Shown: one piece after another, positions 526-18,636 of the stretch
How positions within the stretch are numbered: the stretch's first letter is position 1
Layout: each line of letters opens with the position of its first letter
DNA from: an uncultured Clostridia bacterium
GTDB taxonomy: Bacteria > Bacillota > Clostridia > Oscillospirales > Ruminococcaceae
DNA: 64,000 nucleotides
Reading direction: 5' to 3'
Assembly (NCBI GenBank): GCA_947166275.1
Contig: CAMVDP010000007.1
Coordinates: 1 to 64,000 of the forward strand
The notes under the pieces: generated by a model
Seen by the model: only the letters and a program-made list of their open reading frames with translations
Told to the model about the DNA's origin: nothing
The model's database searches: none
Made by a program: the position numbers and the translations under genes

Positions 526-569
526 CCTCGCTGCCCGGAGAATGTACTTTTTGTAAAGCAATCACAGTC

Positions 570-599
570 CGCACGGAAGATATCTTCTGTGCGTTTTTT
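570..599 (+). terminator. terminator 2 of the tRNA operon
   Basis: CGCACGGAAGA (570-580) pairs over 11 positions (one G-U) with TCTTCTGTGCG (583-593), followed by six T. It shares the GGAAG-TATCTTCT core with terminator 1, so the pair looks like a duplicated tandem stop closing the rRNA/tRNA transcript. Confidence 0.85.
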
Positions 600-719
600 C
601 TGTCCATTCACTATAATAAAATAAAATGTTCTGTCAAAACATCCGAGTAATTATTTAAATACTGGTTACAGTTTATTGAAATCAACTCGGTCACAGCTGT
701 ATCGCTCGCGGGGAAGACC

Positions 720-908
720 ATGCTGGTTTCGGGAGCGGTGACAGCTCTTATTTCGGCGGTCACAGCGCTGATGATATTCATAGATATTTGTTTTTTTCTT
801 GCAGCTATGGCGCTTGTTACAGTGCAGATATCGTACGGAATCGCGGGATATCTTTTGTCTCTTCCGATGAAAGCGCGGCTTGAATGCAGAAAAAACGGAC
901 TGCAATAA
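720..908 (+). CDS. possible small membrane protein, unrecognised
   Basis: A 62-codon reading frame whose product is nearly all hydrophobic (two likely membrane segments over residues 3-50) with a short basic tail ending KNGLQ. GGGGAAG lies only about 3 bases before the ATG, which is close for a ribosome site. Codon choice resembles neighbouring genes, and the frame stays open upstream to 651 without a start codon, so it could be the remnant of a longer gene. I do not recognise a family. The rest of 600-1007 shows nothing else I can support. Confidence 0.25.
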   Translation: MLVSGAVTALISAVTALMIFIDICFFLAAMALVTVQISYGIAGYLLSLPMKARLECRKNGLQ

Positions 909-1007
909 CATAATAAAGCATAAAATGCAGCACCACAACTGTTAACGATAACTTGTACACTGTATACTAAAAAAACAGCTAAATGTTGTGACAGTGCCAA
1001 ATAGAAA

Positions 1008-1043
1008 AGAAACAGCAGACTCACTTTTTGGGTTCTGCTGTTT
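1008..1043 (-). terminator. terminator of the GTPase/tubulin-like operon
   Basis: AAACAGCAGA (1010-1019) pairs with TCTGCTGTTT (1034-1043). Read on the minus strand the stem is followed by TTTCTTTTC. It lies about 20 bases past the stop of the last operon gene. The same stem sequence is used in two other terminators in this window (17765 and 47338). Confidence 0.75.
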
Positions 1044-1062
1044 CTGCATAATTAAGAAGATT

Positions 1063-3372
1063 TTACTTTTTCCCGAACTTTTTATGCTTGGTATCAACGG
1101 ACATACGCAGCATCTTAACCTTGTCAAAGCGCTTGAGACGGGCTTCATTTTCCCTCACGCGTTTTCTGTCCACGCTCTTATCGAAAAGGTATGCGTTGAT
1201 GAAGCGAATGGTGGGATCCTTGTATGTGCCGAGCCCAAGGTCTTTATAGTTATCATTGTGCATATCGGTCTCGATCTCGCCGATAAGGCGGTTGAGGTCA
1301 CGCATCATTGTCTCGTCATCACGGTCTATGTTATCGTAATACTGGGTGTACGCTTTCATGAAATCTGTATCATACACTATGCTTGCACCGTCGCCGATAT
1401 GGCAGTTGGTGTTGGCAAGTATTGAAAGTGCGAGCTCGGGGTATTTGCGGGTGTATATTTCGATCCAGCCGGTGAAAGCCTTCTGTTGGTCTGGCTTGTT
1501 GACAAGCTTGTTCAGCTCATAAAGCGAGGTGATGTCCTTCGGCTTATTGAGCAGTTCGCAGTAGCGCTGGAAAAGTGCTATCATATCAACATTTCCGAGT
1601 TCGGGGTAAGTCTCAATGTGCTTGAGCACATCAAACAGCGCCTCACGGTCATCAGCCATTCTAGTAACACTTTCAGCGGTAAACCCGGTAGCCACGCCGG
1701 ATATGAAGCCGCCGTGGAAATGCTGGTATACTGACATGCCGAGCTCACAGGTGCTGTATATAGCGTCCTTGAGCTCCTTTATCAGAGCAAATCTGCGCAT
1801 CATGCCTGCGTCATTTAGAGTTCCCGTAACTCCGTCTTCAAAGTATATCAGTAGCTTCGCGGAGAACAGGTCATACTCGTTTTTACGGTTGGAGCGGGTC
1901 TCGGTAAAGAACCCGTCAACTCCCTCGATCGTCTCGCGCAGTGTAGCAAAAAGCTTGCTGTAGTTGTTGTCGGTCTGCTTCATGCGGATATATGCGGAGA
2001 TCATACGCTCGTAGACTGCCGATGCCTTGGCGTTGTTATCCTTGCGAATGATAAAGCCGGTGTAAGCATAGAGTATATACTTGTAGATATCGGTCACGAG
2101 CTGTGAGCCGTCATATTCGACGGTAAACAGTCTGTCGAGGAAGGAAGAGTCGGAGTTCGTGAGTGTGTAGATAAGCACGAACGACCATATTCGCTGTGCC
2201 TGGCGCTTGTCTTCCTGACCGAAGGAGGGATAGTGACGCTCGATTATGTTGAACACATCGATGCTCGGGGCATATCCGCCATCCTTGCATTTCTCGATCT
2301 CGCTCTCCCAGTAGCCGTTTATGCGGTTCAGGAAAGCCGCCTTGTTATCCACGATACCATAGAAATCGTAGAACGATGATATGATACGGCAGGCGGCCGT
2401 ACTGTCGAGATTGCGGTTGTCTGTGCCGGAGAGGAACCTCCACATATAGAAGATCTCGTTGATCTTTGAGAGACTGAATCTGTCATTCTCGTCGAGCTTC
2501 GGCTGGATATCGTTATAGAAGCCGTTGAGCGCGGGAGTGTCATACGAGAGTATGTTGCCCATAACGGTGCGCAGGAGCTCGAAGTATTCCTTTACAGCGG
2601 AAGCCTCGATACCGCTCACGAAAGGTTTCTGCTTTGTGAGGTCGAAGATGTAGCCGCCGCTTACGAACTGGCGGCTCAGATCCATGCTGTCGGTGAAGTA
2701 TATGCTAACGTCCTCATAGGCGTAGGTATCGGTAACATGGGTCATAAAGCCCATTTTCTTCTTGTACTCTGCCGGGAACGCGGGTATAAGTATATTCATC
2801 AGGCGTATCGCGTTGAACGACACCTCTCTCGGTGTGCCGGGAAGAGCGATGAATATGGGGTAGCTGTTTTCAGCGGAGAGGAATATTGCCACGATAAGCT
2901 GGGCGAATATTTCGCTGCGGAACAGTTTGCTGATGGCGTTTTTGTTGTATTCGCTGTCGCGGCAGTCCAGGAAACGGTAGTCCACCGCGGGAAGCTTATC
3001 TACGGCGGGGCGCTCAAAGTTATCGGACTTCGCATTCATGAACATAGCCGGGCTGAACGGGCAGATATGCTCATTCAGTATATAATCGCTCTCATTCTCG
3101 GACAGAACGAGGGTATGTGCTATGGACGAGTTACGGCCTACGTAGTCATACTCGAATGATACCGCGGACTGGATGAAGCACTGCTTGTACGGTTTATAGT
3201 AGTGGCAGAACTTCACCGGATGCTCATCGCCTGCCGTGAACGTATAGTTATTGTAATTGCTGAGCTCGTCGTCAGACATTACGTTGTAAAAGTCCGGAGT
3301 CGCGGCAAGGGTCTTATAGCCTGCTCCCGAAGAGCCTCCCGCGGTACTTCCGAACAAATGCTGGTATGCCAT
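1063..3372 (-). CDS. GAP1-like (GTPase-associated protein 1) large protein
   Basis: A 769-residue protein, last gene of the operon and 34 bases after the preceding GTPase gene. The N-terminus (MAYQHLFGSTAGGSSGAGYK, then a HPVKFCHYY segment and a GRNSSIAHTLVL segment) resembles the N-terminal domain of proteins called GTPase-associated protein 1 (GAP1-N), recalled from the family and not searched. The middle and C-terminal ~500 residues look all-helical, with no catalytic motif I can name. Members of this family are known mainly from gene neighbourhoods where they accompany double-GTPase and vWA genes in predicted NTP-dependent conflict systems; their biochemical role is not established to my knowledge. 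Here the gene follows exactly such partners, which supports the call. No signal peptide or membrane segment is seen, so it is probably cytosolic. Confidence 0.6.
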   Translation of the reverse strand: MAYQHLFGSTAGGSSGAGYKTLAATPDFYNVMSDDELSNYNNYTFTAGDEHPVKFCHYYKPYKQCFIQSAVSFEYDYVGRNSSIAHTLVLSENESDYILNEHICPFSPAMFMNAKSDNFERPAVDKLPAVDYRFLDCRDSEYNKNAISKLFRSEIFAQLIVAIFLSAENSYPIFIALPGTPREVSFNAIRLMNILIPAFPAEYKKKMGFMTHVTDTYAYEDVSIYFTDSMDLSRQFVSGGYIFDLTKQKPFVSGIEASAVKEYFELLRTVMGNILSYDTPALNGFYNDIQPKLDENDRFSLSKINEIFYMWRFLSGTDNRNLDSTAACRIISSFYDFYGIVDNKAAFLNRINGYWESEIEKCKDGGYAPSIDVFNIIERHYPSFGQEDKRQAQRIWSFVLIYTLTNSDSSFLDRLFTVEYDGSQLVTDIYKYILYAYTGFIIRKDNNAKASAVYERMISAYIRMKQTDNNYSKLFATLRETIEGVDGFFTETRSNRKNEYDLFSAKLLIYFEDGVTGTLNDAGMMRRFALIKELKDAIYSTCELGMSVYQHFHGGFISGVATGFTAESVTRMADDREALFDVLKHIETYPELGNVDMIALFQRYCELLNKPKDITSLYELNKLVNKPDQQKAFTGWIEIYTRKYPELALSILANTNCHIGDGASIVYDTDFMKAYTQYYDNIDRDDETMMRDLNRLIGEIETDMHNDNYKDLGLGTYKDPTIRFINAYLFDKSVDRKRVRENEARLKRFDKVKMLRMSVDTKHKKFGKK

Positions 3373-3406
3373 ATCCTGTTATCTCCCTTCTCGGTACATT
3401 GGTCAA

Positions 3407-4783
3407 TCATCGTGAAAACAGCTTCTTGAACGGGTTCATGCTCTGTTTCGGAGCCTCCGGCGGTTTATCGGATATGATCCCGAGCTGTGAAAGTATCCAG
3501 AGGAACGGCTCCTCAACGCGAATTTCCTGCGGGATGCCGTTCATTATCTTCTTGCGGTCTATGCCGTCCATATTGACGGTCTCAGTGGGTCCGCCAAGTG
3601 CCGACACTGCGAAATACTTCACGTTGTTGAACATGAAGTCGACGTTCTTGCGGAACAGCGGGGCGGTCATACCAAAGAAGTTATGCACCTCGCCGTTTAT
3701 CGTATCGACCTGATTTTCGTCGAGCCAGCCCTTATGCTCGCACTGGTTGTATATGCTGCTTTCGGGGGCGAAGTATCGCTGGGTCGTGCCGGTGGATTTC
3801 AGCAGATCGCTCTTGGTGAGAACGATAGCGGTAGGCTTATCCTTGAAGTCGATATCCTGCGTGAAGAACGATTCGAGTATCTTAACCGCATCGCCGCGGC
3901 CGATGATGTAATCCGCGCCCGCGTTGGAGTTGAGCGCCGCGAGACGCTGGGCGGCACCCGTCTGCATCGGATCTACCATATATATGAATGCGTCCGCGTA
4001 TTTGAGGTGGCGCGCTCTTGTATTGACGTAATCGGCGTTCTTGATACCGTCGCCCGCCACATCATAGAACGTGAGGGTGATTATTTTGTCTGCGACATTC
4101 TCGCCGTTGACCTTCTTTATGCCAACGCGAAGCTCATATATCAGCGGCTCCACTACCTCGTTGACATGGGTATGCTCCGGCAGCAGGCCCTCCTTGTACA
4201 TCGGGGTGAAGTAGAAGGTATCGTATTTTTCCGATACTGCGCTTGTAAGCGGCATCAGCATGGATTTGAAGCCGTCGTCAAGGAATGACAGGCGGTTTAT
4301 AAGCGTAGTCATATATACCGTCTTGCCGACCGCGGTATCTCCCGCGAAAGCTATGGTGAAGCTTTCGTTGAAGCCTGCCGATTTTGGCAGGTCGTTGTGG
4401 CAGAACGGGCAGAGCCGTTTTTCTGTCTCGTTGCCGAACTCATCAACAACGGAGTACATAACGCCGTCCTTGTAGGTTATCGGCTCACCGCCGAGCGCGA
4501 GACCTATATACTCATCGCCAGTCACCCCGCCGTTCGGAGCTATGACGGGGAATCTTCTCGGTGCCTGGCGCCCGAACTGGCGGTAGTAATCGGCGAGGTT
4601 CTTGTCGACAACGCTGTCCTCACGGAGCGTGCGCTCACCGGTCTGCTGCGAGGTAACGTAATGCTTTGAAGCTGTGGCGCGGAAATGTACATCTCCCGGG
4701 TCAAAGCACTTGAAGCAGTACGGGCATTTTATGGGGTATACAGAGGTTTCCTCTCCTTCAGTCTTTTTCTTTGTAATGATCAA
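3407..4783 (-). CDS. zinc-ribbon double-GTPase-type protein with intact P-loop
   Basis: 458 residues. An N-terminal zinc ribbon is formed by CPYC (20-23) and CPFC (125-128). The GTPase core follows: Walker A/G1 GDTAVGKT (148-155), G3 DVAG (241-244) in LTFYDVAGD, and G4 TKSD (323-326). This matches the DO-GTPase2 type of GTPase associated with GAP1 proteins. The start is probably TTG at 4783, because AAGGAAG sits 7 bases upstream and no better ATG is near; an internal start would remove the first CPYC. It lies between the degenerate GTPase gene upstream (gap 26) and the GAP1-like gene downstream. Of the three related GTPases in this operon it is the only one with a canonical nucleotide-binding lysine, so I infer it is the active subunit. 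Confidence 0.7.
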   Translation of the reverse strand: MIITKKKTEGEETSVYPIKCPYCFKCFDPGDVHFRATASKHYVTSQQTGERTLREDSVVDKNLADYYRQFGRQAPRRFPVIAPNGGVTGDEYIGLALGGEPITYKDGVMYSVVDEFGNETEKRLCPFCHNDLPKSAGFNESFTIAFAGDTAVGKTVYMTTLINRLSFLDDGFKSMLMPLTSAVSEKYDTFYFTPMYKEGLLPEHTHVNEVVEPLIYELRVGIKKVNGENVADKIITLTFYDVAGDGIKNADYVNTRARHLKYADAFIYMVDPMQTGAAQRLAALNSNAGADYIIGRGDAVKILESFFTQDIDFKDKPTAIVLTKSDLLKSTGTTQRYFAPESSIYNQCEHKGWLDENQVDTINGEVHNFFGMTAPLFRKNVDFMFNNVKYFAVSALGGPTETVNMDGIDRKKIMNGIPQEIRVEEPFLWILSQLGIISDKPPEAPKQSMNPFKKLFSR

Positions 4784-4809
4784 CTGATATCTTCCTTTCC
4801 GGGAATAGT

Positions 4810-5991
4810 TTATCTTGTTATTTTAAAGCTCTTGACGCTGTCGTCGGTCAGCAGGTGCAGTTTTGAGAGCATCCACAGGAACGACGTTTCGGCAGCTGAC
4901 GTATCGAGTATGTCGGCCGTGCCGTCGGTATGCGTGTCATATAACGATCGCGCGGGGAAGTACATCGATGTCTGTGCGCCGAACAATGCCGCGAGCGCGG
5001 AGTAAAACGCAGGCATCCGAGATCTGACCGCTTCAAGAGTCTTCACGTTGACTTTCGAGAAGAACGATGACGGGAAGCTCTTCTCTACTGTCTTTGACTC
5101 CGACTGCTTGATAAGCGCCAGCCATTTCCTGTCCACAAGCGCCGCCTTGTCCGCGTTCGTGAGCAGCACCGCGGCAGGCTTATCTATAGGGTTCGCGCCG
5201 AACAGCCGTCGGAATGTCTCTGTGAGATATCCGAGCCACGGTTCGGTGAGCGGGTCATCCTGTGTTGATGCTTCCGCGATATCCGAGATGAACACGATGC
5301 CGTTCGCCTGTGAGATCGCGTTGTATGCCACCATGGGGTATCTGTCGCACAGATCCTTGTCTATGTTGTAGATGTATATCATGGCGCGGTTATAGACGAC
5401 ATCGCTGCCGCGCCAATCCTCCGCGTTAGATGCGCCGGTGCGGCTGAACTCATATACCAGCGGGTACACCGAAGTCATAGCCTCGGGCAGCAGCTTCTGT
5501 ACGTAAAGCGGCTCCTCATACTGCTCAAAGAACGTTTGCGCGCTCTTGTGGTCGGCAGGTATGAAGCTCGCGCCGAAATCGCTCTGCATACGCTTGTTCA
5601 GCTTATGCAGGACCGTCGAGATGTAGAAGCTCCTGTCGGTGTCCTGTGCGCCGAGAACGACCAGCGAGAACGGCTTTTCTCTGCCTGCCGCCGCCGGGAG
5701 CACGTTACAGCAGTACGGGCAGGCCCGCACGAAGGTAACATCGTCTGTCTCGGTGAGCGCGGAGAAATAGCTGTCTATGCCGTCGTTACCGCGCTTACGG
5801 AAGCACAGCGGCATTTGTCTGTCCGCGAAGGCTTCAAGGCCCAGGATATCCTTCATGTACGCTTCGTATTCGGGGTACATGTGCTCCGAGCGCTCCTTGT
5901 AGTCCACGAACAGCGCCTTGTGTATCGTGTACCGCTTGAAGCAGTACGGACACGCTATATCATAAGTGGTCTCTGTCTCGTTGTTTGCCAT
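4810..5991 (-). CDS. zinc-ribbon GTPase-like protein with degenerate P-loop
   Basis: 393 residues from the ATG at 5991. The frame stays open further upstream into the preceding gene, but this ATG places the zinc ribbon at the same N-terminal position as in its neighbours. CPYC occurs at 14-17 and again at 91-94. The segment equivalent to the P-loop reads GAQDTDRS (114-121): the GK(S/T) lysine is gone. A G4-like TNAD remains in LLTNADK. The layout (ribbon, P-loop region, G4, C-terminal WMLSKL tail) is shared with the 458-residue neighbour, whose tail has FLWILSQLG. It therefore looks like a paralogue that has lost or strongly changed nucleotide binding, perhaps a regulatory partner. The gene starts 32 bases after the previous stop. 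Confidence 0.65.
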   Translation of the reverse strand: MANNETETTYDIACPYCFKRYTIHKALFVDYKERSEHMYPEYEAYMKDILGLEAFADRQMPLCFRKRGNDGIDSYFSALTETDDVTFVRACPYCCNVLPAAAGREKPFSLVVLGAQDTDRSFYISTVLHKLNKRMQSDFGASFIPADHKSAQTFFEQYEEPLYVQKLLPEAMTSVYPLVYEFSRTGASNAEDWRGSDVVYNRAMIYIYNIDKDLCDRYPMVAYNAISQANGIVFISDIAEASTQDDPLTEPWLGYLTETFRRLFGANPIDKPAAVLLTNADKAALVDRKWLALIKQSESKTVEKSFPSSFFSKVNVKTLEAVRSRMPAFYSALAALFGAQTSMYFPARSLYDTHTDGTADILDTSAAETSFLWMLSKLHLLTDDSVKSFKITR

Positions 5992-6023
5992 TTTCTGAAT
6001 TTGCTCTCGTTTCCTGAATAGTA

Positions 6024-7052
6024 TTATCCGAAAAGCTCGGAATAAAGCTTGCCGAGAAGTCCGGCATCGTCCTGCTCCGACATCGTGGAGACTGCCGACA
6101 CCGCGTGAACGCGTACTCCCGTGAAGAAGCCGGAAAGCTCCTCTATGCACGGGAACGCCGCGAACAGGTAGTTCTTCATGGCCTGCTCGTTATCCTTCAC
6201 CGAGAGGAGATCCGCTGCGGCTCCTCCCAGTTTTGCTGCGAGGTCGAGCTTTGTCACCGCGATATTCAGCGTGGGTGTGACCTGCGAGTACCTGAACGCG
6301 CTCATCATCTTGTATATGTCGAGCCGCGTCAGCATAACGTTCAGCTCCGTGGGGGCTTCGGTCTGCTCCGCGAGCTTATCCACGGGCACGCAGTATACGT
6401 AGTGCGCCGCGTCCGCCGCGTAGGAAACGCAGGTGTAGAGAGCCTCCTCGTCTGTGAAGTCCGCGTCCGAAACATCGTGCATCACATCGCATACGGTGTT
6501 CCAGCCCGCTCCCGCGCCGGTAACGCGGTATATTGCGGTGGGTTCACGCAGGTCTGAAGGCTTTTCGCCGCTTCGCACGCGGTCGTACTGTCCGGTTATG
6601 AACTCCGGGTCGTATATCTTTTCGTTGAAAATGTATCTGAACCTGTCATCGGGGGAGAACTGCCGCGTGACGCACTCGCCCGCCATGGCAGTTATCAGCG
6701 ATGTCCGGCCGCAGTCCTTTCTGCCGAAGAACACTGCGGTATTCACACGACCTTCGTCAGTGTCGCGGAACACCTCGTTGTGGCAGGACGGGCATATCAG
6801 CGTATCCGTGCTTCTTCCGGTGCGGGTCATCAGCACGGGCTTGTTTTTCTCCCACTCGATGCCTGCCGATTCAGGTGAGCCTGCGCCGCAGACATCCGGC
6901 AGATTGCTGTTCTTGTCGGATATGCCGTGCAGCGTGAGATACCGCTGGTAGATGTTGTCGGGAATGTGCTTATAGTCGGGCGGCAGCCGGAACAGTGCGT
7001 GCCGGTCAAGGTCAATGCGCCTGCCGCAGAATATACATCTTCGCTCCGCCAA
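6024..7052 (-). CDS. zinc-ribbon GTPase-like protein, P-loop Lys replaced by Arg
   Basis: 342 residues with a TTG start at 7052 (GGGAG lies upstream; no ATG fits the N-terminal ribbon). CIFC (6-9) and CPSC (87-90) form the zinc ribbon. The P-loop region is GRKDCGRT (110-117), so the usual lysine is arginine; the G4 motif TKLD is kept in IAVTKLDL. Third member of the GTPase trio in this operon and the shortest. The order ribbon, P-loop, G4 is the same as in the other two. Arginine here usually weakens nucleotide binding, so activity is doubtful. It follows the 197-residue gene by 18 bases. Confidence 0.6.
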   Translation of the reverse strand: MAERRCIFCGRRIDLDRHALFRLPPDYKHIPDNIYQRYLTLHGISDKNSNLPDVCGAGSPESAGIEWEKNKPVLMTRTGRSTDTLICPSCHNEVFRDTDEGRVNTAVFFGRKDCGRTSLITAMAGECVTRQFSPDDRFRYIFNEKIYDPEFITGQYDRVRSGEKPSDLREPTAIYRVTGAGAGWNTVCDVMHDVSDADFTDEEALYTCVSYAADAAHYVYCVPVDKLAEQTEAPTELNVMLTRLDIYKMMSAFRYSQVTPTLNIAVTKLDLAAKLGGAAADLLSVKDNEQAMKNYLFAAFPCIEELSGFFTGVRVHAVSAVSTMSEQDDAGLLGKLYSELFG

Positions 7053-7070
7053 CTCGCTTCAGCTCTCCCT

Positions 7071-7664
7071 TCACATCGTATTTATCACGTATTCGTCTTC
7101 ATGCCCGGGAGCAAGCGTGAGTGTCACGCCAGCCTGTGCGCCCGCTATTATCGGACCGAGCTCCGAGCTGCCGGCAGCCACGCGCTGATGTATCACGTAC
7201 TCCGCGCCGCCCGGCGAGATCCTGTATGCAAGCGCTCCTGCCGGGACTTCCGCATCCGACTTCAGCGCAAGCGTTATTTTCTTGTACATCTTGCCGCCCT
7301 TTTTTTCAGCGGTCTTGTAGCTTATGTTCAGCGTGATCCCTGTGATCTGTGCGATACCGCTGGGCTTGGTGAAGTCCGTGCTTTCGGGGCTGTCGCAGCA
7401 GTAAACGCGGAATTTCAACAGACCCGCGTCTTTTGCACCTATCGGGAATACATATCGTCCGCCGGCTATCTGGAACTCGTCCGTGAAGCACAGGTCGGAG
7501 CACTCCGCGAGTTCATCGGGCGTGAGCGAGGTCACATCGCGTCCGCCGAGGCGGTGTACGAAGACTATCCTCACCATGCTGTACCCCGAAGGCCAAACCC
7601 ATTTCACGGCTACGCTGCCGTCTGCGGTGCGCAGAGCAGCGATACCTTTGATATACTCGTCCAT
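7071..7664 (-). CDS. unrecognised beta-rich protein of the GTPase operon
   Basis: 197 residues from the ATG at 7664. GAGGTG sits 7 bases before this ATG; a GTG two codons upstream would have almost no space to that site. The preceding gene ends within a few bases of this start, so translation is probably coupled. The sequence alternates short hydrophobic strands and polar turns (VAVKWVWPSGY, RIVFVHRLGG, KKITLALKSD, GVTLTLAPG) and suggests one or two beta-sandwich domains, like fibronectin-III or carbohydrate-binding folds, but without a signature I can name. No signal peptide. Function unknown; its position between the tubulin-like/719-residue genes and the GTPases suggests a structural or adaptor part. 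Confidence 0.55.
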   Translation of the reverse strand: MDEYIKGIAALRTADGSVAVKWVWPSGYSMVRIVFVHRLGGRDVTSLTPDELAECSDLCFTDEFQIAGGRYVFPIGAKDAGLLKFRVYCCDSPESTDFTKPSGIAQITGITLNISYKTAEKKGGKMYKKITLALKSDAEVPAGALAYRISPGGAEYVIHQRVAAGSSELGPIIAGAQAGVTLTLAPGHEDEYVINTM

Positions 7665-7666
7665 GC

Positions 7667-9826
7667 TCACACACCTCTTCTTATATACACACTGTCGCCG
7701 TTCTCGGCGATGAAGCTCTCATATACCTTGCGGCACTCGTTGATGTATACCGCGCTGTCGGCCGACGGCACGTTATATACCGCGAGCTGCTCATATGACG
7801 CGGTGTTGATATCACCGATATGCACGGTGTTGAAGCCCGGGTCGTCGAAGCCTATCATCTTCTTTACGAAGTCAAGCTCACGGTTACCCATCACAAATAG
7901 GCTGTTGCTGGGCTGGAATACGCTGTAGCGCAGATTTGCACGGCTCTCGTCGCCGAGTCTGCGGACGAGCTGTGCATCCACCCAGCCGCGGTCCTTGCCG
8001 CCGTCGAAGCTGCGGTAGCGCTCGTAAAGCTCCTTGTCGAAGGTCTGCGCGAACACCTCTCTTACTGCCGGGTCGGCGAGCAGCTTCTTATAGATATCGA
8101 AGGCGATGTCTGTCAGCTCGTCGGTGCTGATGCCGCAGTTCATGAGCACGCTGTACAGGTCGCGTCCGCGCAGTACCGCGGTCATACCGCCGGAGCGGTC
8201 GAGCTCCTCCGCTGCGCGCTGTGTCACCCCGGCGTAGCACGCCATGAACGGCGCAGCGTCGGTGAGAGTGGATTCACTGTCGTACAGCTCACGCAGCACA
8301 TCCTCCTTGAGCTTGTCGGATAACGCGGTGATACTGCCGAGTGCCGCGCTCACACGGCTGTGGAGCCCGTTTATCTGGGCGAGTATGTTCGCTGCAAGAC
8401 GCTTCATCATGTGAAGCCGCAGTATCTCCAGCTTTTTGCTGTATTTGCGGGATATAGCCGCAGCGAGGATATCGCAGCCCGATGGCTTTGAGAAAAGCCC
8501 GTGAGCAAGCCCGGGGCAGGGCTCCGAAAGCAGTGTGTTCAGCTGCGTTTTCAGATCGTCCTCCTCCGAGTTTATGCGCTCGGTGACTTCCGACAGGCAC
8601 GCCGATATCTCACCGTCATGCTCCAGAAGCTCCAGAGCTCCCGCGAGGCGCAGGGTGCCTTTGTTTATGTAAGTGCGCAGTATCTCTTCGATATCCGCGC
8701 TTTCGATCTTGTCTATCATCTCCGCGCAGAGCGTTTCGTATCTCTCCGCGAAATACACCTCGTCCGCGCCGCCGTAATATTCGAGTATGTTTCTCACGCT
8801 CGTGTTGCTGATGCGGTCGGGATCCTGTCCGGCGTTTTTAGGCAGCACCGAAAGTATATCGTCCACGCTCGGCATTGTGAGCATGATGCCGTCGCACTTT
8901 GCGGCAAGCACATCATAGCCTAAAAGCTGTGCCACGGGGAGCTTCGGAGCTTCGCCGCCCGCAGTTCCGGCGAGTATGTCTATAAGCGATTTGAACATCA
9001 CGTGCGCTATCGCGGATGTCGGCTTTTCCGCCGATGCTATACCTGCTGTGCAGAAGGGGCTGTTCGGGAGCTTTATGGGCTCTTCCCGGTCACACAGTGC
9101 CGCAGTGAGCGCTTCGATGCGTGCATTGTTTACCGCGTTGTGGGGGCTGAATTTCATGTCGCTGCGATACATCTCAAGGAAGAAGACCGTGCCGAACACA
9201 GCACCCTCCCAGTGTACCGGTATGCGCTGTTCCTCGCGCATCATTACTGCGCCGTCGTATACGAAATCAGGGCTCTGGCACTCATCAAGCTCGCGGAAGA
9301 ACGCGCCCGAGTTCAGGTAGCCTTCCTCGCCGCCGCCGAATTCCACGAACAGGCAGGTGTTCACGCGGATATGCGCGTTGTCGGTGAACAGTATCACAAG
9401 CTCGGGCAGCAACGCGTTGAGCGGGCAATCCGACTCCGTGACCACGAAAAGGTGGCAGCGGTCAGTCTGCGGGAAGCCCGATGTCATCATTAGCTTATCT
9501 ACAGCCTTGCGGACCTCCGTACTGAACGCGGTAAGGCGTTCGGCGCTGCTGATAAGGTATGCGTAGGCTTCACCGCGCGACTCGGGGACCGTCACATCCA
9601 GCGTGAAGTCCGCGTCCGCGCAGGGTGTTCCCACCGTGCCGTGCAGTATGCTGCCGCCGTTCATAAGCTTTGCCCGCAGGTGTGTGCGTATCGCTGCGCA
9701 GCGCTCTGCGGCTTTTGCTCCCACATAAAGGAACATTGCCGGATATACCGCGCCCACTGACGCCGCGGAGCCCTGCTCCTGCGTACCGCCGATAAGCTCG
9801 TCTATCCTGTCAAGAATTTCTTTCAT
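7667..9826 (-). CDS. large unrecognised protein of the GTPase/tubulin-like operon
   Basis: 719 residues, beginning MKEILDRIDELIGG. I do not recognise a family. The N-terminal ~250 residues look alpha/beta: strands at VGAVYPAMFLYVG, CHLFVVTES, ELVILFTDN and TCLFVEFGGG are typical of a Rossmann-like or receiver-like core. The rest is mainly helical, with a long helical stretch around 400-560. No Walker motif, transmembrane segment or signal peptide is visible. It directly follows the tubulin-like gene (gap 26 bases) and its stop overlaps the start region of the next gene. The pairing suggests it binds or regulates the tubulin-like protein, but that is inference from position alone. Confidence 0.6.
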   Translation of the reverse strand: MKEILDRIDELIGGTQEQGSAASVGAVYPAMFLYVGAKAAERCAAIRTHLRAKLMNGGSILHGTVGTPCADADFTLDVTVPESRGEAYAYLISSAERLTAFSTEVRKAVDKLMMTSGFPQTDRCHLFVVTESDCPLNALLPELVILFTDNAHIRVNTCLFVEFGGGEEGYLNSGAFFRELDECQSPDFVYDGAVMMREEQRIPVHWEGAVFGTVFFLEMYRSDMKFSPHNAVNNARIEALTAALCDREEPIKLPNSPFCTAGIASAEKPTSAIAHVMFKSLIDILAGTAGGEAPKLPVAQLLGYDVLAAKCDGIMLTMPSVDDILSVLPKNAGQDPDRISNTSVRNILEYYGGADEVYFAERYETLCAEMIDKIESADIEEILRTYINKGTLRLAGALELLEHDGEISACLSEVTERINSEEDDLKTQLNTLLSEPCPGLAHGLFSKPSGCDILAAAISRKYSKKLEILRLHMMKRLAANILAQINGLHSRVSAALGSITALSDKLKEDVLRELYDSESTLTDAAPFMACYAGVTQRAAEELDRSGGMTAVLRGRDLYSVLMNCGISTDELTDIAFDIYKKLLADPAVREVFAQTFDKELYERYRSFDGGKDRGWVDAQLVRRLGDESRANLRYSVFQPSNSLFVMGNRELDFVKKMIGFDDPGFNTVHIGDINTASYEQLAVYNVPSADSAVYINECRKVYESFIAENGDSVYIRRGV

Positions 9827-9852
9827 ATATTGTCCGTCTCGTCTTCCGGCTC

Positions 9853-12800
9853 TTATTCAAGCAGCTCAAGCGAGCTGTCTGCCATGTCTCTGAGCTTTCT
9901 GTACTTTCTTAATATATCATCTGCGCGTGCGGGATCGTCCTCGGAGAGCTCCGCTTCCATGTCGTCCACGGCGCGTATCGACGCGGTGACATGCTTTTTG
10001 AGGTTGCGCAGGAACTCGATATGCTCGTCGGGGATATCATCGGAGTGAGCTGCCACAGCCTTCTTGGCGATGTAGCCGCGCGCTGTCTCATCGAGCTCGG
10101 CGTACTTTTCGAGGAGTACGTAGTAGTAGAAGTATCTCTGTTCGGTGGTGTCGCCGATGGTGAGCGTATTGAGCACGTTCACGTTGTCACCTGCCGCGTT
10201 GACGTAGCGGAAGAAGTTCTTCTCCTTGAAGATGACACCTGCGAACATCGCGTCGAACAGACCTTTGAGCTGCTTGTTAGCGTCCTTTTCCTTGCTGATT
10301 ACGCCCTCGCACTCTGCGATTCCTGCGAGAGCCGCGTTATATGCGTCGAGCATCTGTTCGGTATACTTCCACGCACCGTAGGTACGCACATACGCCTCGC
10401 GGATCTTATCGATCTCGGCGGCGTTCATGTAATTCACGGGGTTGAGCGTGAACAGCACATTTGCGTTCTTTATCCTATTGATGAATTCATCGTATTTCTG
10501 CTTTGCTTCCTTGATGCTTGAGGGCTTCTGCGGGTCGAAGGTTATCGCTTTCGCGGCTTCTGCGGTGAGAGTCTCGTCAAATCTTACGTTGCCCACGGTA
10601 TCGATGATGCCTGCTGCGAGAGCGGCATTGAACTTCTCACGGTTAGCTTCGTTCTCGCGGTGTACCTTCTCGGAGTTCTCGGTGACAGCCTCCTTCGGGC
10701 GCAGGGTGTCATGTATCGGACTGGGGAGTCTGAACCAGTCGGTATCACGAAGTCCGCTGTAGGTCGAGTACAGGTGCTGACCGATCATGTTCGCGTCCTT
10801 TGTGCCGCCGGTCTCGGAAACGAAGGAATAGTAATCCGACTCGAACAGGTGCACGGTGTTATGGTGTGCTACTGCGAGGCCCGCGCCGAACGTGAATATC
10901 GAGATACGGTTGGTGTACGGGCTGATTATCTTATGGCGCGAGAGGACCTCATCATCGTCCGCGGCAGCTTCTATCGGGCCTGCCTGGCTCGGTATGGATA
11001 CGTAAAGTATCTCGGCGGTATCAGTGGAGGTGGAGCACGGGTACATGATATTTGAGCGTGCGCGCAGCTCCTTCAGCAGCTCCTTTGCCGCGTCCGCACG
11101 GGAAGCGGAGCTCGGGTAGCGCGCCTCGAAGAATTCGCTCATGGACTGGCTCAATGTTTCGGAGAAGTGAGCGGCGATGCTGTCGCAGATGAATGTGGAG
11201 ACATCGAACTCATCGCGGGACTTGCTTGCCTTGAACGCGTCAAGGAAGCGGCGCAGGATATCGGACACTGCGTTTTCGAGGTCAACGGCGCTTACCTCTT
11301 CGTTGAGCTTTTCGAGCACGTTCTGCTCGCTCTTGATATCGTACATCTTCCACTCGTAGGTCTTGCTGAGACCCGTGGTAGCGTTCTCAACGCCGGTCAC
11401 GATGTTAAGGTTCTTCTCGCAGACTATGCGCAGATAATCGAGAATGCCCACCATGTTATCGATGAGGTCGTTGAAGTAGTTGCTGATGCGCGCGATAAGC
11501 TCGCTGTACAGCTTTATGGTGTAATCGCAGCGGATAGCGTCCGCTTTGTTGGTGTAGTACTGGGAAATAAGGTTGAAGTAGTCCTTGCGTGAGCCCGAGG
11601 TCACATCGAAGAACTTGCTCACGAAGGCACTGTAGGCGCGGTCAGCGGCATTCTTCTTCTCCATGAGCTTCTGGGAATTGAGCTCCGCCTGAATGCCCAT
11701 TTCCTCGTTGATGCAGGTGCGCAGCTTTTTGAGCAGGCAGAATTTATCCTCGGAGTTGATGAGGCTCGCGATATAGAACGGACCCTCGGCGCAGTTGCAG
11801 AAGCTTATCTCCGCAGCCTGTTCGAACTTATTGAAGAAATACTCGATAGCGTCGGGCAGGTAAACACGGTAGCTTTCCTCCACCTTGTTGACCCATTCCT
11901 CGCCCATTTCCTCCACGCTGCGCTTGTTGACTTTAAGCGCCTGGCGCGAGAACACGGGATTCTCCACGCCGCCGTCAAACAGGGACGGTCGGTGCGCGTC
12001 GAAGAACGACTGGACGGATATATTGTCAAGTCCGCAGGTCCCGAGGAAAACCATGCGCTGCTCGTTGGTGGGCGCGTTGGAGTGCAGCTTGTTCATGTGT
12101 GAGAACACCTTGCCGGAGAGGTATTCGAGCACCTCGGACTTCGGCAGGATAGCCGCGGAAGCACCGACAGAGGAGTATACATTGAGCATCGGGTACTGGG
12201 GGATAATGCCCGCGAGCGCCTGACCGAGGTTTACGCGGAAAGAGTCGATGCTGAAGTCGCCCTGGCTGTCGGAGGAGGAGATGAAGTTACAGATACCCTC
12301 GGCAGCAATGGAAAGGCTGAACTTGTACTGCTCGGCAGGGTTTTTGAGCACGAAGCCGTCCTTACCGCTCGCGGAGACGAACAGGCAGGTATCGTAGGGG
12401 CGCTCGGTGCTTATGGTCTCAAATGTATCGGAATAGCGCTGTTTGAAGGGGTCGAACATATGCGAGTGCATATCCATGAGATATTCGAGCTCCTGCAGAG
12501 CCGCGAAGCCGTTTCTCTTTATGTAGCGCTGGATATTCGGGTCATCCACGCGGGAAAGGTTCACATCGGGAGTGAAGAGGAAGCCCATGATATCGAAGTT
12601 GCTCTTGCCCTGGCGGTTGATTATCTCGCGGACAATGTAGGGGATATCTATGAATGTACCGCTTCCGGTACCGCCGCTGATACCGGAGAGGATGAACACC
12701 TGCAGGCGCTGGTTGGGCATCATGCCGGTGAGGAGCTTCTGGACATTGGTGGTTATCGCCTTGACCACGGCATTTATCGAGTTGAACAGGAGGATACGTC

Positions 12801-13272
12801 CTGACTGGCGTATACCGTTGGCACCGTCATCTCCGCCGCCCTTAACCTTGGTGTAGATACGCTTTGGGTCGTCGAGCCACTCACGCACATAGGGAGGAAT
12901 AAGATGCTCATTGGCAAGGAAGCGCTCAACTGACGCGGATATCGAGACATACTCTCCCACCGCGAAACGCATCTCGCCGTCCTTCTTGTCGGTCTTTTTC
13001 TTGAAGTATGTGCTGTCAGAATCGATACCGAGTATCTTGATGTTGTTCGGTATCGCGAGAGCCTTGTTCGGTGCGTCCTCGGGAAGCTTGAAGCGCTTGT
13101 TTATCAGCTGCTTTGTATACAGCAGCGCATCCATGCCTGTACCGCCGAGCCCGATGATAAGCACAGGATTTCCCTTTGATTCGACCCTTATCTGTGCGCT
13201 CGACATCGATCCGCCGAGGTCGACGCTCATTAAGGATATATTTTCCTTCTGTGATTCCGATATTCTTGCCAT
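9853..13272 (-). CDS. very large tubulin/FtsZ-like GTPase (Tubulin_2 type)
   Basis: 1139 residues. The N-terminal half carries tubulin/FtsZ hallmarks: a nucleotide-binding start PVLIIGLGGTGMDAL (GLGGTG at 41-46), a strand ending in LGIDSDS (81-87), and the tubulin signature SGISGGTGSGT (GGTGSGT at 200-206), followed by an FtsZ-like stretch DIMGFLFTPD. FtsZ is usually under 400 residues and tubulins about 450, so some 600 residues are extra; these are helical and partly coiled-coil (around 600-720 and 900-1139). This matches Pfam's 'Tubulin like' (Tubulin_2) type as I recall it; no function is established for that group to my knowledge. A good ribosome site (GGAGGA) precedes the ATG. Second gene of the operon, 43 bases after the vWA gene. 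I infer a GTP-dependent polymer or scaffold. Confidence 0.75.
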   Translation of the reverse strand: MARISESQKENISLMSVDLGGSMSSAQIRVESKGNPVLIIGLGGTGMDALLYTKQLINKRFKLPEDAPNKALAIPNNIKILGIDSDSTYFKKKTDKKDGEMRFAVGEYVSISASVERFLANEHLIPPYVREWLDDPKRIYTKVKGGGDDGANGIRQSGRILLFNSINAVVKAITTNVQKLLTGMMPNQRLQVFILSGISGGTGSGTFIDIPYIVREIINRQGKSNFDIMGFLFTPDVNLSRVDDPNIQRYIKRNGFAALQELEYLMDMHSHMFDPFKQRYSDTFETISTERPYDTCLFVSASGKDGFVLKNPAEQYKFSLSIAAEGICNFISSSDSQGDFSIDSFRVNLGQALAGIIPQYPMLNVYSSVGASAAILPKSEVLEYLSGKVFSHMNKLHSNAPTNEQRMVFLGTCGLDNISVQSFFDAHRPSLFDGGVENPVFSRQALKVNKRSVEEMGEEWVNKVEESYRVYLPDAIEYFFNKFEQAAEISFCNCAEGPFYIASLINSEDKFCLLKKLRTCINEEMGIQAELNSQKLMEKKNAADRAYSAFVSKFFDVTSGSRKDYFNLISQYYTNKADAIRCDYTIKLYSELIARISNYFNDLIDNMVGILDYLRIVCEKNLNIVTGVENATTGLSKTYEWKMYDIKSEQNVLEKLNEEVSAVDLENAVSDILRRFLDAFKASKSRDEFDVSTFICDSIAAHFSETLSQSMSEFFEARYPSSASRADAAKELLKELRARSNIMYPCSTSTDTAEILYVSIPSQAGPIEAAADDDEVLSRHKIISPYTNRISIFTFGAGLAVAHHNTVHLFESDYYSFVSETGGTKDANMIGQHLYSTYSGLRDTDWFRLPSPIHDTLRPKEAVTENSEKVHRENEANREKFNAALAAGIIDTVGNVRFDETLTAEAAKAITFDPQKPSSIKEAKQKYDEFINRIKNANVLFTLNPVNYMNAAEIDKIREAYVRTYGAWKYTEQMLDAYNAALAGIAECEGVISKEKDANKQLKGLFDAMFAGVIFKEKNFFRYVNAAGDNVNVLNTLTIGDTTEQRYFYYYVLLEKYAELDETARGYIAKKAVAAHSDDIPDEHIEFLRNLKKHVTASIRAVDDMEAELSEDDPARADDILRKYRKLRDMADSSLELLE

Positions 13273-13315
13273 GTTTTCCTCCGATATATGTTATTTGCGC
13301 TTTTCCGCGCTGTGA

Positions 13316-15109
13316 TCATGTCCGCAGGTACTGTACTATCATCAGGTTGTTTGAACCGGATGCCTTGTCGGCGTATTTTATCGTAACTTTGTTTGCGTTC
13401 GAGAGCACGATCTTCTTACCGAGAGTGATGCCGCCGCTGTATTCCACGCCGCCTGCTTTCGTGAGACGAATATCTCCCGAATCGGTCATGGTTATCTTTA
13501 TAGCCGAGGTCACGCTCTTGGGCACAGCCTCCACGATAGCGGAGTCGTCCGATACGGTCTTGAGCACATCGAGCAGTGTTACCTTGCGCTTTCCGGGTAC
13601 TTTCTTTGCAAAGTCATACGGCATCGGCATAGAGGGCATACCCGCCTTGTTGACGGTAATGACCACTCTTCCCGACCAGAAGCGTATATTTTCCTTCATG
13701 TACCGGATTATCATGATTATTATCACGATAAGCAATATCACGCTTGCCGCGCATATCAGTATCAGCTTCAGCGGGCCCTCCGGCTCCTTGTACGCTTCGG
13801 TGCCGTGTTCGAGAGTCGTTATCTCGCTTCGTATATCGATATTGGAGTTGTACAGGCTCACCTGAACGGTGTAGTTGTCGTCGGTGTCTATGCTGCCTTC
13901 GCCGTAGAAGGAGCTGTTTTCATCAACTGTGAGCACGATCTCCTGTGTCTCACCGGTAGCTTCATTTTTGAGCACGCCCTTACCGAAGAGCTTGGTTATT
14001 ACGTTCTCATCGGTTATCTTCACGCCGCTCGGGTCGGTGAGCTCTGCCCTGAGCTTTACTATCGCGCCCGCGCACACTTCTCTGCTCGTGAGTATCGTTG
14101 GGCAGAGACGGAAGTCACGCGTGAGTATGCAGTTTATATCTACCTTGGTGTCGGCGGGTGAGGTAACGAGAAGGTGCCACTTGCCTGCATTCGGATAGTA
14201 CAGCTTCATCAGCGTGTATCCTTCGGTGACGGACATATCCGCCTGTGAGCCGTTGAATATCACTTCTTTGCCGTCGGGATCCTTTATCTTGATGTCATCG
14301 AGCACTCCGGTGTGCATGATAACGAGGTTTGCCTCGATGACCGATCCGTCCGCGATGTCGAACTCGGTATCATGCTCGCCGCCAATAGATTTGAAGCTTG
14401 CGAGCTGTAGGTTCTCGGCGCCCGTATGACGCACATAGATATCACTCAATATCTCTGACAGGTCGCTCGCGCTGTTGGTCATGTAAGTGTCGTCTGCGTA
14501 GGTCTTCGTCGAGATGTGGCGGAGCTGTTCCTCATCGACATCGCCGTTTGCGTTAAGTCCTATGGTGTATATCGGTATCCCGGCATTCTGGGCTTCCTCG
14601 ATACCCTTTTCGAGGTCGGCTTCCGAGTCCTCAAGTGTTCTTGTGGAGTTTTCGCCCTTTGTGATGACGGTCCTGCCGTCGGAGAGGAACACGATAAATC
14701 TGCCTTTTTCGTTCTCTGAAGCTTCAGGGAAGCTTTCCACCGAGTGGCGCAGAGCGAGACCGATATCGGTAGAGCCTTTCAGCTCGGTGAGCTCATCGAC
14801 CTTTTTCTTGATGGCGATCCTGTCTTCCTCGGTATTGATCGGCATCGGTGCCTGTTCGTAGTTTATCTCGGTTCCGAACAGCACAAAGCCTATCTTTGTC
14901 TTTCCGAGCGTACACAGGTCGGCGAACAGCTTTATAGCTTCAAGTCTTATCATATCCGGGTCACTTTTGTTCATCGAGCGGCTCGAATCGACAAGGAAGA
15001 TGACGTTTACTTCTCCTGTTGTCTCTCCCACTGCGCCGGCTTCGATGATGCCGAGCGACAGTGAAGCCGCGATAACAAGAGCGAGGATAGCGGAAATCAG
15101 CTTTTTCAT
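13316..15109 (-). CDS. exported membrane protein with von Willebrand A domain
   Basis: 597 residues from the ATG at 15109 (GGGAG 9 bases upstream). The frame is open for 58 more codons, but this start gives a clean signal peptide (MKKLISAILALVIAASLSLG). The vWA domain follows with a full metal-binding site: DSSRS (41-45), T114 in GSTDIG and D144 in FLSDGRT. A beta-rich region comes next, then one strong membrane segment at about 440-465 and a ~130-residue tail predicted inside the cell (FWSGRVVITV...VTIKYADK), which may be a small beta domain. The external vWA domain would bind a ligand through Mg2+. It is the first gene of the operon and its only membrane member, so it could link an outside signal or anchor to the cytosolic tubulin-like/GTPase parts; that is inference. 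Confidence 0.8.
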   Translation of the reverse strand: MKKLISAILALVIAASLSLGIIEAGAVGETTGEVNVIFLVDSSRSMNKSDPDMIRLEAIKLFADLCTLGKTKIGFVLFGTEINYEQAPMPINTEEDRIAIKKKVDELTELKGSTDIGLALRHSVESFPEASENEKGRFIVFLSDGRTVITKGENSTRTLEDSEADLEKGIEEAQNAGIPIYTIGLNANGDVDEEQLRHISTKTYADDTYMTNSASDLSEILSDIYVRHTGAENLQLASFKSIGGEHDTEFDIADGSVIEANLVIMHTGVLDDIKIKDPDGKEVIFNGSQADMSVTEGYTLMKLYYPNAGKWHLLVTSPADTKVDINCILTRDFRLCPTILTSREVCAGAIVKLRAELTDPSGVKITDENVITKLFGKGVLKNEATGETQEIVLTVDENSSFYGEGSIDTDDNYTVQVSLYNSNIDIRSEITTLEHGTEAYKEPEGPLKLILICAASVILLIVIIIMIIRYMKENIRFWSGRVVITVNKAGMPSMPMPYDFAKKVPGKRKVTLLDVLKTVSDDSAIVEAVPKSVTSAIKITMTDSGDIRLTKAGGVEYSGGITLGKKIVLSNANKVTIKYADKASGSNNLMIVQYLRT

Positions 15110-15190: not shown

Positions 15191-15219
15191 ATTATACATC
15201 ATTACTTGCGAAAAGTAAA
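15191..15219 (-). promoter_or_regulatory. sigma-A promoter of the vWA/tubulin-like/GTPase operon
   Basis: On the minus strand: -35 TTTACT (15219-15214), 17-base spacer, -10 TATAAT (15196-15191). It lies about 80 bases before the vWA start codon. No other good promoter is seen inside the eight-gene run, where all gaps are under 45 bases. Confidence 0.6.
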
Positions 15220-17817: not shown

Positions 17818-18636
17818 TCACCGGGTCATTTCTCCCATGACTACGCGATCCAGTCCGGCAGGATCCTTCAGGACACCGGGGCGCAGACGGGAGTCTGACA
17901 TTATCTGCGAAACGGCTCTGCCCTGGGTCTCACCGATCTCGACGGCGATAAAACCGCCCGGCGCAAGTCTCGGAGCCCATGCGGGTATAAGCGTGCGGTA
18001 AAATCCGAGACCGTCGGAGCCTCCGGCGAGAGCAGTCTCCGGCTCGTGCGCGACTTCCCGCGGGAGCGAGGACATCTCTTCGTCAGTGAGGTACGGGGGA
18101 TTTGAGAATATCGCGTTGAAAGTAATGCCGGGGAACAGGGAGTTATCGCGGGCATCGGCTTTGAGTGCGGTGACAGGAGCGTTATTCAGCGCTATATTGC
18201 GTTCAAGGAAGCCGAAAGCTTTGTCGTACAGCTCTACGGCATAGCACCTTGCGCCGGTCTTTAGCGCGATGCTTATGGGGATGCAGCCGGTACCGCTGCA
18301 CAGGTCGAGTACCGTGCTGTCGCTGTCGAGCCGGTCGGCCGCAATATCGACGAGCATTTCCGTTTCCGGGCGCGGGATCAGCACGCCCTCACCTACGCTG
18401 AACGGATAGCCGTAGAACTCCCACTGTCCGAAGATATACTGGAGCGGCTCACCGGTGATGCGGCGGCGCACGGTATCGTCAATGCGTTCGAGTGCGCTTT
18501 CCGTCAGCTCTCCGCCCATGAGCGCGGCATCGCCCGCGTACTCGCGGAGTATCTCACGTGCCTCGAACACAGGGTCAAAGACCCCCGCCGAAGCGAGGGT
18601 CGCTGTTATTTCTCTGAGCTTTACGCGGCTTACCAT
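17818..18636 (-). CDS. prmC: release factor glutamine methyltransferase PrmC (HemK)
   Basis: 272 residues, normal for PrmC. It shows the linker motif PRPETE (88-93), the SAM-binding DLCSGTGCI (111-119) and the catalytic NPPY (179-182). It methylates the GGQ glutamine of peptide release factors RF1 and RF2 using S-adenosylmethionine. The start overlaps the end of yqhQ by a few bases, so the two are translationally coupled. In many Clostridia prmC is followed by prfA; here a terminator follows instead and prfA must be elsewhere. Confidence 0.93.
   Translation of the reverse strand: MVSRVKLREITATLASAGVFDPVFEAREILREYAGDAALMGGELTESALERIDDTVRRRITGEPLQYIFGQWEFYGYPFSVGEGVLIPRPETEMLVDIAADRLDSDSTVLDLCSGTGCIPISIALKTGARCYAVELYDKAFGFLERNIALNNAPVTALKADARDNSLFPGITFNAIFSNPPYLTDEEMSSLPREVAHEPETALAGGSDGLGFYRTLIPAWAPRLAPGGFIAVEIGETQGRAVSQIMSDSRLRPGVLKDPAGLDRVVMGEMTR

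Follow-up and report, generated by a model that had tools for sequence, protein, structure and literature searches.

The eight minus-strand ORFs (A–H) at positions 1063..15109 of the window, that is, the whole 64,000-nucleotide stretch of rumen bacterial DNA analyzed here, almost certainly constitute a GAP1-N2/DO-GTPase system with a tubulin theme, the particular variant being restricted to a single clade of rumen Clostridia. Such systems are already in print (Kaur et al. 2020, PMC7159879) and overlap the vWA/FtsZl1/GTPase operons (Makarova and Koonin 2010, PMC2875224). The intact GTPase is accompanied by two degenerate copies and the intact tubulin by an apparently dead one, which makes the parts list testable biochemistry, and the sister copies without GTP-handling motifs offer definite leads on the possible working of such machines.

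Layout and conservation of the operon

The window opens at the end of its contig, in an assembly that is 81% complete. In transcription order, the ORFs are separated by gaps of 43, 26, 2, 18, 32, 26, and 34 bases, the largest of which agrees with the initial annotation of a tight minus-strand operon with gaps of <45 bases; ATG starts were picked for A (15109), D (7664), and F (5991). A sigma-70-like promoter site (15191..15219, minus strand), with 10/12 consensus matches and a 17-base spacer, lies ahead of the operon. This site is weak alone, the scan having returned 23 such sites across 18 kb where 13.4 were expected, and further promoter-like sites with 9–10 matches occur inside the operon. 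Directly after the last stop codon, the fold of 975–1062 contained a terminator-like hairpin followed by T's (~1045–1008, minus strand), with a z-score of −1.83 and 10 of 200 shuffles folding equally well; the hairpin was not among the matches of the terminator pattern scan. Of the single promoter and terminator originally proposed, a candidate site at each end stands, but with such scan and fold statistics the arrangement for the whole operon is only plausible.

Profiles built from non-rumen relatives selected exactly these eight of the 221 ORFs in the window. Among 79 related loci, 61 had enough flanking sequence for the gene order to be judged; all 61 carried a vWA gene before and a GTPase gene after the tubulin gene, which supports the genes as a conserved unit, and 51 contained the whole set of A, C, D, GTPase, and GAP1 genes around B. 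The core of the operon is also carried by Clostridium ljungdahlii and a plant-associated Paenibacillus. Close copies within the genus occurred in 13 of the 17 genomes inside one clade and in none of the 54 outside it. Four members of the clade lack B, and searches for G and H found neither in them; absence as a block from close relatives, which the initial annotation had put forward as a check, holds for these three genes. The DUF1385 gene at 18630–19784 of the window was used as a clade marker only. A Pfam census of 197 genomes of the order, which found DO-GTPase2 in seven and GAP1-N2 in three, is of little use; neither model picked up the genome of the window itself. All eight genes were under purifying selection, with B and G evolving the slowest and C, D, E, F, and H faster, at dS values near saturation.

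Intact and degenerate products

Gene A (13316..15109, minus strand) encodes a vWA protein of 597 amino acids, and its designation as an exported membrane protein was supported by a match to PF00092 (E-value 7e-18) and by hydropathy, which marked hydrophobic segments at residues 1–19 (a signal-peptide-like start) and 443–461 (a membrane segment). The predicted layout is a vWA domain outside, a hemicentin GBD-like stretch, the membrane segment, and a cytosolic tail. The match of A itself to GBD_Hemicentin (E-value 3e-4) is under the cut-off; the family was matched at E-value ≤ 0.01 in 21 of 35 cases. The metal site in the vWA domain of this predicted single-pass protein was shown to be complete, with residues D41, S43, S45, T114, and D144 invariant in all 35 aligned relatives (34 of 70 family members plus the window protein).

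Gene B (9853..13272, minus strand) encodes a Tubulin_2 (FtsZl1-type) protein with intact GTP loops. Its initial recognition as a 1139-residue tubulin with a GGTGSGT signature was borne out by its match to PF13809 (E-value 1.6e-54); the T1 and T4 loops were each kept in 79 of 81 relatives, and dN/dS was 0.03–0.08. The 719-amino-acid product of gene C (7667..9826, minus strand), previously left unassigned, can now be assigned as a pseudo-tubulin, with a tubulin-like domain lacking the GTP loops plus long helices. When the wider families were compared, the C and B profiles matched at 96.8% over 468 columns, a link visible only with these families (profiles of the rumen clade alone gave 0.3%), and the predicted structure of C (pLDDT 86.0) had FtsZ and TubZ as its top PDB fold matches. 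The C alignment comprised 40 of 66 family members, the window protein, and four further sequences. Judged from profile and predicted fold, C is a degenerate second tubulin, paralogous to B; the same two lines of evidence ruled out an unrelated coiled-coil protein. The GTP loops were present in none of the 68 relatives of C, and because all 68 share the loss, it is old and presumably useful.

Gene D (7071..7664, minus strand), the other product without an earlier assignment, encodes 197 amino acids that, according to the structure model (pLDDT 92.0), form a tandem FnIII-like protein. Foldseek matched the model to FnIII pairs at E-values of 4e-4 to 9e-4 with low TM-scores, and the top-ranked row was a phage N4 tail chain. 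D had no Pfam match, and fn3 was matched in none of 39 members. Profile comparison of D gave 0.1% with the vWA family and 0.0% with the GAP1 family, ruling it out as a piece of either. The D alignment contained 37 of 47 diverse members (from a family of 63), the window protein, and one further sequence; PDB sequence searches with the B, C, and D alignments returned weak or partial matches only, with no convincing relative.

The three proteins initially described as zinc-ribbon GTPases do share two CxxC pairs, kept in E, F, and G alike (10/10), but the GTPase motifs are intact in G alone. Gene G (3407..4783, minus strand; 458 amino acids) encodes a DO-GTPase2-like protein whose motifs GDTAVGKT, DVAGD, and TKSD were kept in 10/10. 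It scored 18.1 bits against Pfam DO-GTPase2, under the cut-off of 27, and was found at 2e-82 by a profile of 89 non-rumen GTPases, a Paenibacillus member of which passes the cut-off (30.1 bits); a PDB sequence search with G gave no match. The residue after DxxG was Glu in 76 cases and Asp in nine (DVAGD, in the window's clade), with 13 unscored, and the relevant passage of Kaur et al. (PMC7159879) gives no position for the Walker B glutamate. Gene E (6024..7052, minus strand; 342 amino acids) retains TKLD, has GRKDCGRT with arginine for the P-loop lysine, and is missing DxxG, the DVAGD motif being absent in 10/10; its profile matched that of G at 89.7%. Gene F (4810..5991, minus strand; 393 amino acids) encodes a pseudo-GTPase without a P-loop, which was found in none of 10 relatives, and its profile matched that of G at 99.5%. 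Only G was shown by its motifs to be an intact GTPase, with E and F as degenerate paralogues. The motif counts ruled out three active GTPases, and the profile matches to G ruled out unrelated zinc-ribbon proteins for E and F, both of which were seen in one rumen clade only. A GTPase tree of 62 rows, with five of the nine rumen loci included and the others thinned by similarity, gave E no firm position.

Gene H (1063..3372, minus strand; 769 amino acids), downstream of G, encodes a GAP1 protein of the GAP1-N2/M type. The GAP1-like label was correct, although H itself scored 18.8 bits against Pfam GAP1-M, under the cut-off of 24, and its tie to GAP1-N2 runs through relatives only: a non-rumen profile found H at 8e-14, and its Paenibacillus member matched GAP1-N2 at 3e-44 and GAP1-M at 2e-26.

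Possible roles at the cell envelope

What the operon brings about is most probably a structural or sensory function at the envelope rather than killing. The mechanism that we propose, which as a whole is tentative and falls somewhat short of an even chance, is a scaffold or sensor that is resident, linked to the envelope, and switched by GTP. B would assemble with GTP on the cytosolic side of the membrane; C, as an integral partner that does not hydrolyse GTP, would cap, space, or anchor the B assembly. The metal site of A would bind a wall or surface ligand, and the state of A would be conveyed across the membrane to the assembly in the cytosol, with G as the switch that reads or sets that state, H as the cognate partner of G, and D as an adaptor. 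Because pseudo-enzymes often regulate live paralogues, E and F may hold G in a heteromeric complex. At the sequence level, this mechanism is supported by the gene order, the specificity of the profiles, the intact frames of the eroded genes, the purifying selection on all eight genes, the invariant metal site, the signal-peptide-like start and membrane segment of A, and the confinement of close copies within the genus to one clade. The variable rumen flanks, the AbiD-like gene nearby, and the near-saturated dS values count against it, and the scattered distribution of the system and the rapid evolution of C, D, E, F, and H would also be compatible with an arms race. Furthermore, B may not polymerise, given that, for the FtsZl1 family, the passages concerned of PMC2875224 could not confirm the elements with which FtsZ forms filaments. 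Of the self-contained machine envisaged in the initial annotation, the conserved unit and the membrane-anchored vWA protein remain, but not three working GTPases; its suggestion of a role that may be structural or sensory fits the lack of an effector domain and of B in plasmid and phage collections.

For the GAP1/DO-GTPase class as a whole, an anti-invader role was proposed in passages of Kaur et al. (PMC7159879). In such a conflict system, D and A would sense, G and H would set the threshold, and the B–C assembly would physically wall off the invader. Class membership favors this reading, as do the patchy spread (18 of 71 genus genomes; Tubulin_2 of any kind in 16 of 197 genomes of the order) and the faster evolution of the five genes other than A, B, and G. 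It is nonetheless rather doubtful here. Most rumen loci are flanked by different genes and an AbiD-like gene lies 11 kb from the operon, yet AbiD was the sole clear defence match among 10 flanking window proteins (the other match was a PrmC methyltransferase), and in 29 of 35 Paenibacillaceae loci one neighbour gene is constant. Pfam, NCBIfam, and PADLOC revealed neither a toxin nor an effector domain among the operon products, in line with the initial remark that no toxin domain is obvious; PADLOC gave no match for seven of the eight proteins, and the operon matches no described defence family there, barring weak partial matches of F (E-value 0.003–0.03). B had no match in plasmid or phage collections, and within the genus its close copies occur in a single clade.

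The system is chromosomal, as would suit a machine in constitutive use that assists in building the wall or shaping the cell, the vWA protein being an anchor to the wall instead of a sensor; both the slow evolution of B and G and the extracellular sandwich-like stretches on the vWA protein, with their recurrent GBD_Hemicentin matches, point the same way. We consider such a machine unlikely: GAP1 and the GTPase suggest a switched process, and the system is dispensable because it is absent from 53 of the 71 genus genomes and from four of the 17 clade members. That E and F are decaying, roleless leftovers of a GTPase duplication, in a machine of the common single-GTPase type, is very improbable. 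Their motifs are eroded and relatives with an equal gene order outside the clade have one GTPase after D, but the reading frames of E and F stay open in all 10 operons that are complete there, their dN/dS is 0.10–0.33 (five pairs each, dS high), their CxxC pairs are kept throughout, and three Clostridium loci likewise have, in an upstream position, a GTPase paralogue without a P-loop, a hint that the solution recurs.

Within the envelope-linked scaffold or sensor, an analogy with the integrin-to-cytoskeleton link can be drawn, although we regard it as distinctly unlikely: a vWA receptor would connect, through one membrane span, to an assembly of live and dead tubulin, whose state would be set by a GTPase with two dead partners. 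The metal-dependent site on A would relay ligand binding or mechanical load, and the live/dead pairing in both GTPase classes would be a working principle, with the dead copies fixing the geometry and the live ones switching. If the vWA receptor really signals to a tubulin-family assembly, bacteria would possess their own receptor-to-cytoskeleton route.

Comparison with known systems

The combination of parts is already present in passages of PMC2875224 and PMC7159879, the former having put FtsZl1/Tubulin_2, vWA, and GTPase operons in print in 2010. No functional study of these operons was recognised in the literature searched, and in the literature on DO-GTPase, GAP1-N2, and double-GTPase, Kaur et al. 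(2020) alone treats the GAP1-N2/DO-GTPase systems. The FtsZl1/vWA/GTPase operons, for which membrane remodelling was proposed, share with the window operon a long tubulin-family protein (GTP-loop N-terminus and helical tail), a vWA gene, and a diverged GTPase, whereas GAP1, FnIII, pseudo-tubulin, and pseudo-GTPases are not named for them in the passages concerned (PMC2875224). The MoxR–vWA ternary systems, as described in part of Kaur et al. (2020, PMC7159879), also have a vWA component under NTPase control and fall within one class of regulated systems, but the window operon contains no MoxR, VMAP, or effector domain (Pfam, NCBIfam, PADLOC).

The firmicutes version of the GAP1-N2 tubulin theme, in the passages on it in PMC7159879, has in common with the window operon a zinc-ribbon DO-GTPase, GAP1, an FnIII protein, a membrane vWA protein, and two tubulin genes with long helical tails, which we equate with B and C. 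It has two vWA genes, one multi-membrane, and the latter is missing from the window, in which a vWA profile found one ORF; a second vWA gene is present in Paenibacillus loci and is a feature of the firmicutes version, not of the whole class. The main-text passages of PMC7159879 mention no inactivated DO-GTPase or tubulin in these systems, and the window operon differs from the firmicutes version in that two degenerate GTPase genes accompany the intact one, making three, and in that its second tubulin lacks GTP loops.

Operon content and gene neighbourhood

The eight minus-strand genes reported in the initial annotation were recovered at window positions 15109 down to 1063, with intergenic gaps of 2 to 43 bases, and are here called A to H in transcription order. 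Their proposed parts, namely a vWA protein (A), a Tubulin_2 protein (B), and a GAP1 protein (H), were all borne out. The host assembly is 1.88 Mb in size and 81% complete, and the window starts at the contig end, such that only about 1 kb is visible downstream of H.

A scan of named genome contigs with B identified 368 relatives, of which the best 80, representing 79 distinct loci, were kept. The closest of these were from rumen 'Ruminiclostridium' and uncultured Clostridia assemblies (B identity 84–94%). A locus was considered judgeable if B was preceded by 2.2 kb or more and followed by 8 kb or more (61 of 79), and the other 18 were left uncounted. Among the judgeable loci from these best 80 of 368 matches, A lay upstream of B and a GTPase gene downstream in 61/61, C, D, and GAP1 lay downstream in 56, 55, and 51, respectively, and all of these occurred together in 51. 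The genes therefore co-occur in other genomes, on which the initial annotation had made its proposal depend, and their grouping is more than chance. Across the 79 loci from the same best 80 matches, the most frequent order was A-B-C-vWA2-D-G-H (28/79), followed by this order with an extra upstream GTPase (9/79; with GAP1 too in three more) and by A-B-C-D-E-F-G-H (8/79, plus one truncated at B). Non-rumen profiles picked exactly the eight correct ORFs from 221 window ORFs (E-values: A 3e-102, B 7e-205, C 2e-44, D 2e-9, E 6e-6, F 6e-31, G 2e-82, and H 8e-14); because the families were originally recruited with the window proteins, these matches show similarity, not independent discovery.

A begins with a signal-peptide-like stretch and has a second hydrophobic segment, presumed to span the membrane, followed by a tail with no assigned domain. 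Its residues D41, S43, S45, T114, and D144, which correspond to a complete vWA/I-domain metal site, were invariant in 35/35 aligned relatives. At E ≤ 0.01, a hemicentin GBD-like domain was detected in 21 of 35 A sequences and YtkA in six; YtkA is named in the firmicutes version in the accessible part of Kaur et al. (PMC7159879).

Paralogues of the tubulin and the GTPase

C had been left unassigned, a status now superseded by profile, Tubulin_2, and fold matches. The wide-family profiles of C and B matched at 96.8% across 468 columns; controls gave 0.5% each for two reversed profiles and 0.1–0.7% for three other families. Tubulin_2 was matched by 9/45 C members (best E 1.7e-4) and any other family by at most two; the window's own C had no Tubulin_2 match. 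The top PDB match of the predicted C structure (pLDDT 86.0, pTM 0.74) was FtsZ (E 3.8e-3, probability 1.00), and 41 of the 50 listed rows, none of which reached E 0.001, were FtsZ, TubZ, CetZ, or tubulin, judged from titles and chain lengths. GTP loops T1 and T4 were each present in 79/81 B and 0/68 C sequences. The profile match to B, the fold matches, and the absent GTP loops thus identify C as a pseudo-tubulin.

The description of E, F, and G as three zinc-ribbon GTPases holds for the ribbons, as both CxxC pairs were retained in 10/10 sequences of each, but only G is intact. The G motifs GDTAVGKT, DVAGD, and TKSD were all present in 10/10, whereas GxxxxGK[ST] occurred in 0/10 F and 8/10 E sequences (GRT replaces it in the window and in L050, the window's closest relative), and DVAGD in 0/10 E sequences; these counts therefore indicate that a single GTPase is intact and the other two are degenerate. 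Profile–profile comparisons of the eight rumen-clade families (28 pairs) gave 51.5% for E-F, 89.7% for E-G, and 99.5% for F-G, and at most 0.5% for the remaining 25. In a 62-sequence tree, F grouped with G sequences from its own clade (SH-aLRT 82), on long stems flagged by the program, and E had no placement. The E and F frames were open in 10/10 operons complete in that part, with dN/dS of 0.10–0.33 (five pairs each; rough, since dS was 0.7–1.8); B and G evolved most slowly (0.03–0.10).

In a remote version in the same genus (genome G349, locus L129), a vWA-sized ORF comes first, followed by the tubulin gene, ORFs of the size of C and D in that order, a single GTPase whose motifs are intact, and an ORF judged GAP1-like by eye. 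The single GTPase there implies either a gain of E and F in the rumen clade or their loss elsewhere. Directly after the GAP1-like ORF lies a kinase-like ORF, also recognised by eye (L129 4621–5589, minus strand). Clostridium loci carry a second set upstream of the vWA gene, comprising D-, GTPase-, and GAP1-like genes and another GTPase; in three of them (L087, L094, and L095), the last GTPase lacks the P-loop, a second case of P-loop loss in a GTPase paralogue.

The predicted structure of D, the other gene that had been left unassigned (pLDDT 92.0), had nine PDB matches at E ≤ 0.001, comprising seven FnIII proteins and two phage N4 tail chains, with a tail chain ranked first and TM-scores of about 0.3. 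The seven include the gp130 receptor, an FnIII protein. No member of the D alignment matched the fn3 Pfam models.

Distribution and possible function

B matches occurred in 18 of 71 genomes of the genus, 13 close (84–100%, the window's own included) and five remote. The DUF1385 gene, found in 71/71 and used as a clade marker, showed ≥80% identity in 17 genomes, and every one of the 13 close carriers belongs to this group; no close B copy occurred in the remaining 54 (≤69%). G and H were also not found in the clade's four non-carriers, which are fragmented assemblies (72–95% complete). Rumen-clade flanks mostly differed, L054 alone of 12 loci having flank genes in common with the window. In Paenibacillaceae, one gene adjoining A was common to 29/35 loci, indicating a stable operon site there. 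Elsewhere in the window, an AbiD/Abi_2 abortive-infection-like gene (26323–27237, minus strand; PADLOC 1.5e-92, Pfam 7.9e-48) adjoins amidase/GatB and aspartyl-tRNA-synthetase-type genes, and three paralogous genes with pairwise identities of 34–50% stand in tandem at 51837–55452 (plus strand).

A role in biological conflict, as proposed in the accessible part of Kaur et al. (PMC7159879), agrees with the patchy distribution, the higher evolutionary rates of C, D, E, F, and H, and the AbiD-like gene at 11 kb distance, but we consider it less likely: no effector domain was found in the operon, its close copies are clade-bound, and B had no match in plasmid and phage collections. In the mechanism that we favour, B would assemble at the membrane with C as its dead partner, A may report a ligand outside the cell, and G, together with E, F, D, and H, would switch B–C assembly. 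According to the accessible part of PMC12008871, motion up-regulates a methanogen operon that encodes vWA proteins and contains a tubulin-like gene, which is a distant, possible expression lead for vWA/tubulin operons.

Relation to known systems

Sequence comparison places the operon in the GAP1-N2/tubulin theme and establishes its live and dead paralogues, its metal site, and its topology as predicted from hydropathy. A second kind of Tubulin_2 cluster in relatives (L041 1643–14274, L037 304–12078, and L043 1429–14226, all minus strand) consists of a vWA- or similar-sized ORF, tubulin, a 650–800 aa protein, and a 1370–1465 aa protein, and no GTPase was observed in it; the long protein of L041 has an AHELTH zinc-protease-like motif, and DUF6055 was weakly matched in two of the three. 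At L030 (genome G115; 555–10308, minus strand), vWA, tubulin, and C-like genes occur without an evident GTPase; a zinc-ribbon protein that weakly matches a protein kinase (E 0.0035) stands there instead.

This kind of system is already known: FtsZl1/vWA/GTPase operons have been in print since 2010 (PMC2875224), and GAP1-N2 systems that combine FnIII with a pair each of tubulin and vWA genes were published in 2020 (PMC7159879), as the accessible parts of both papers record. Unlike the systems described in those parts, the window has a GTPase triplication with degenerate copies and a second tubulin without GTP loops, and these features are a useful clue to the mechanism.
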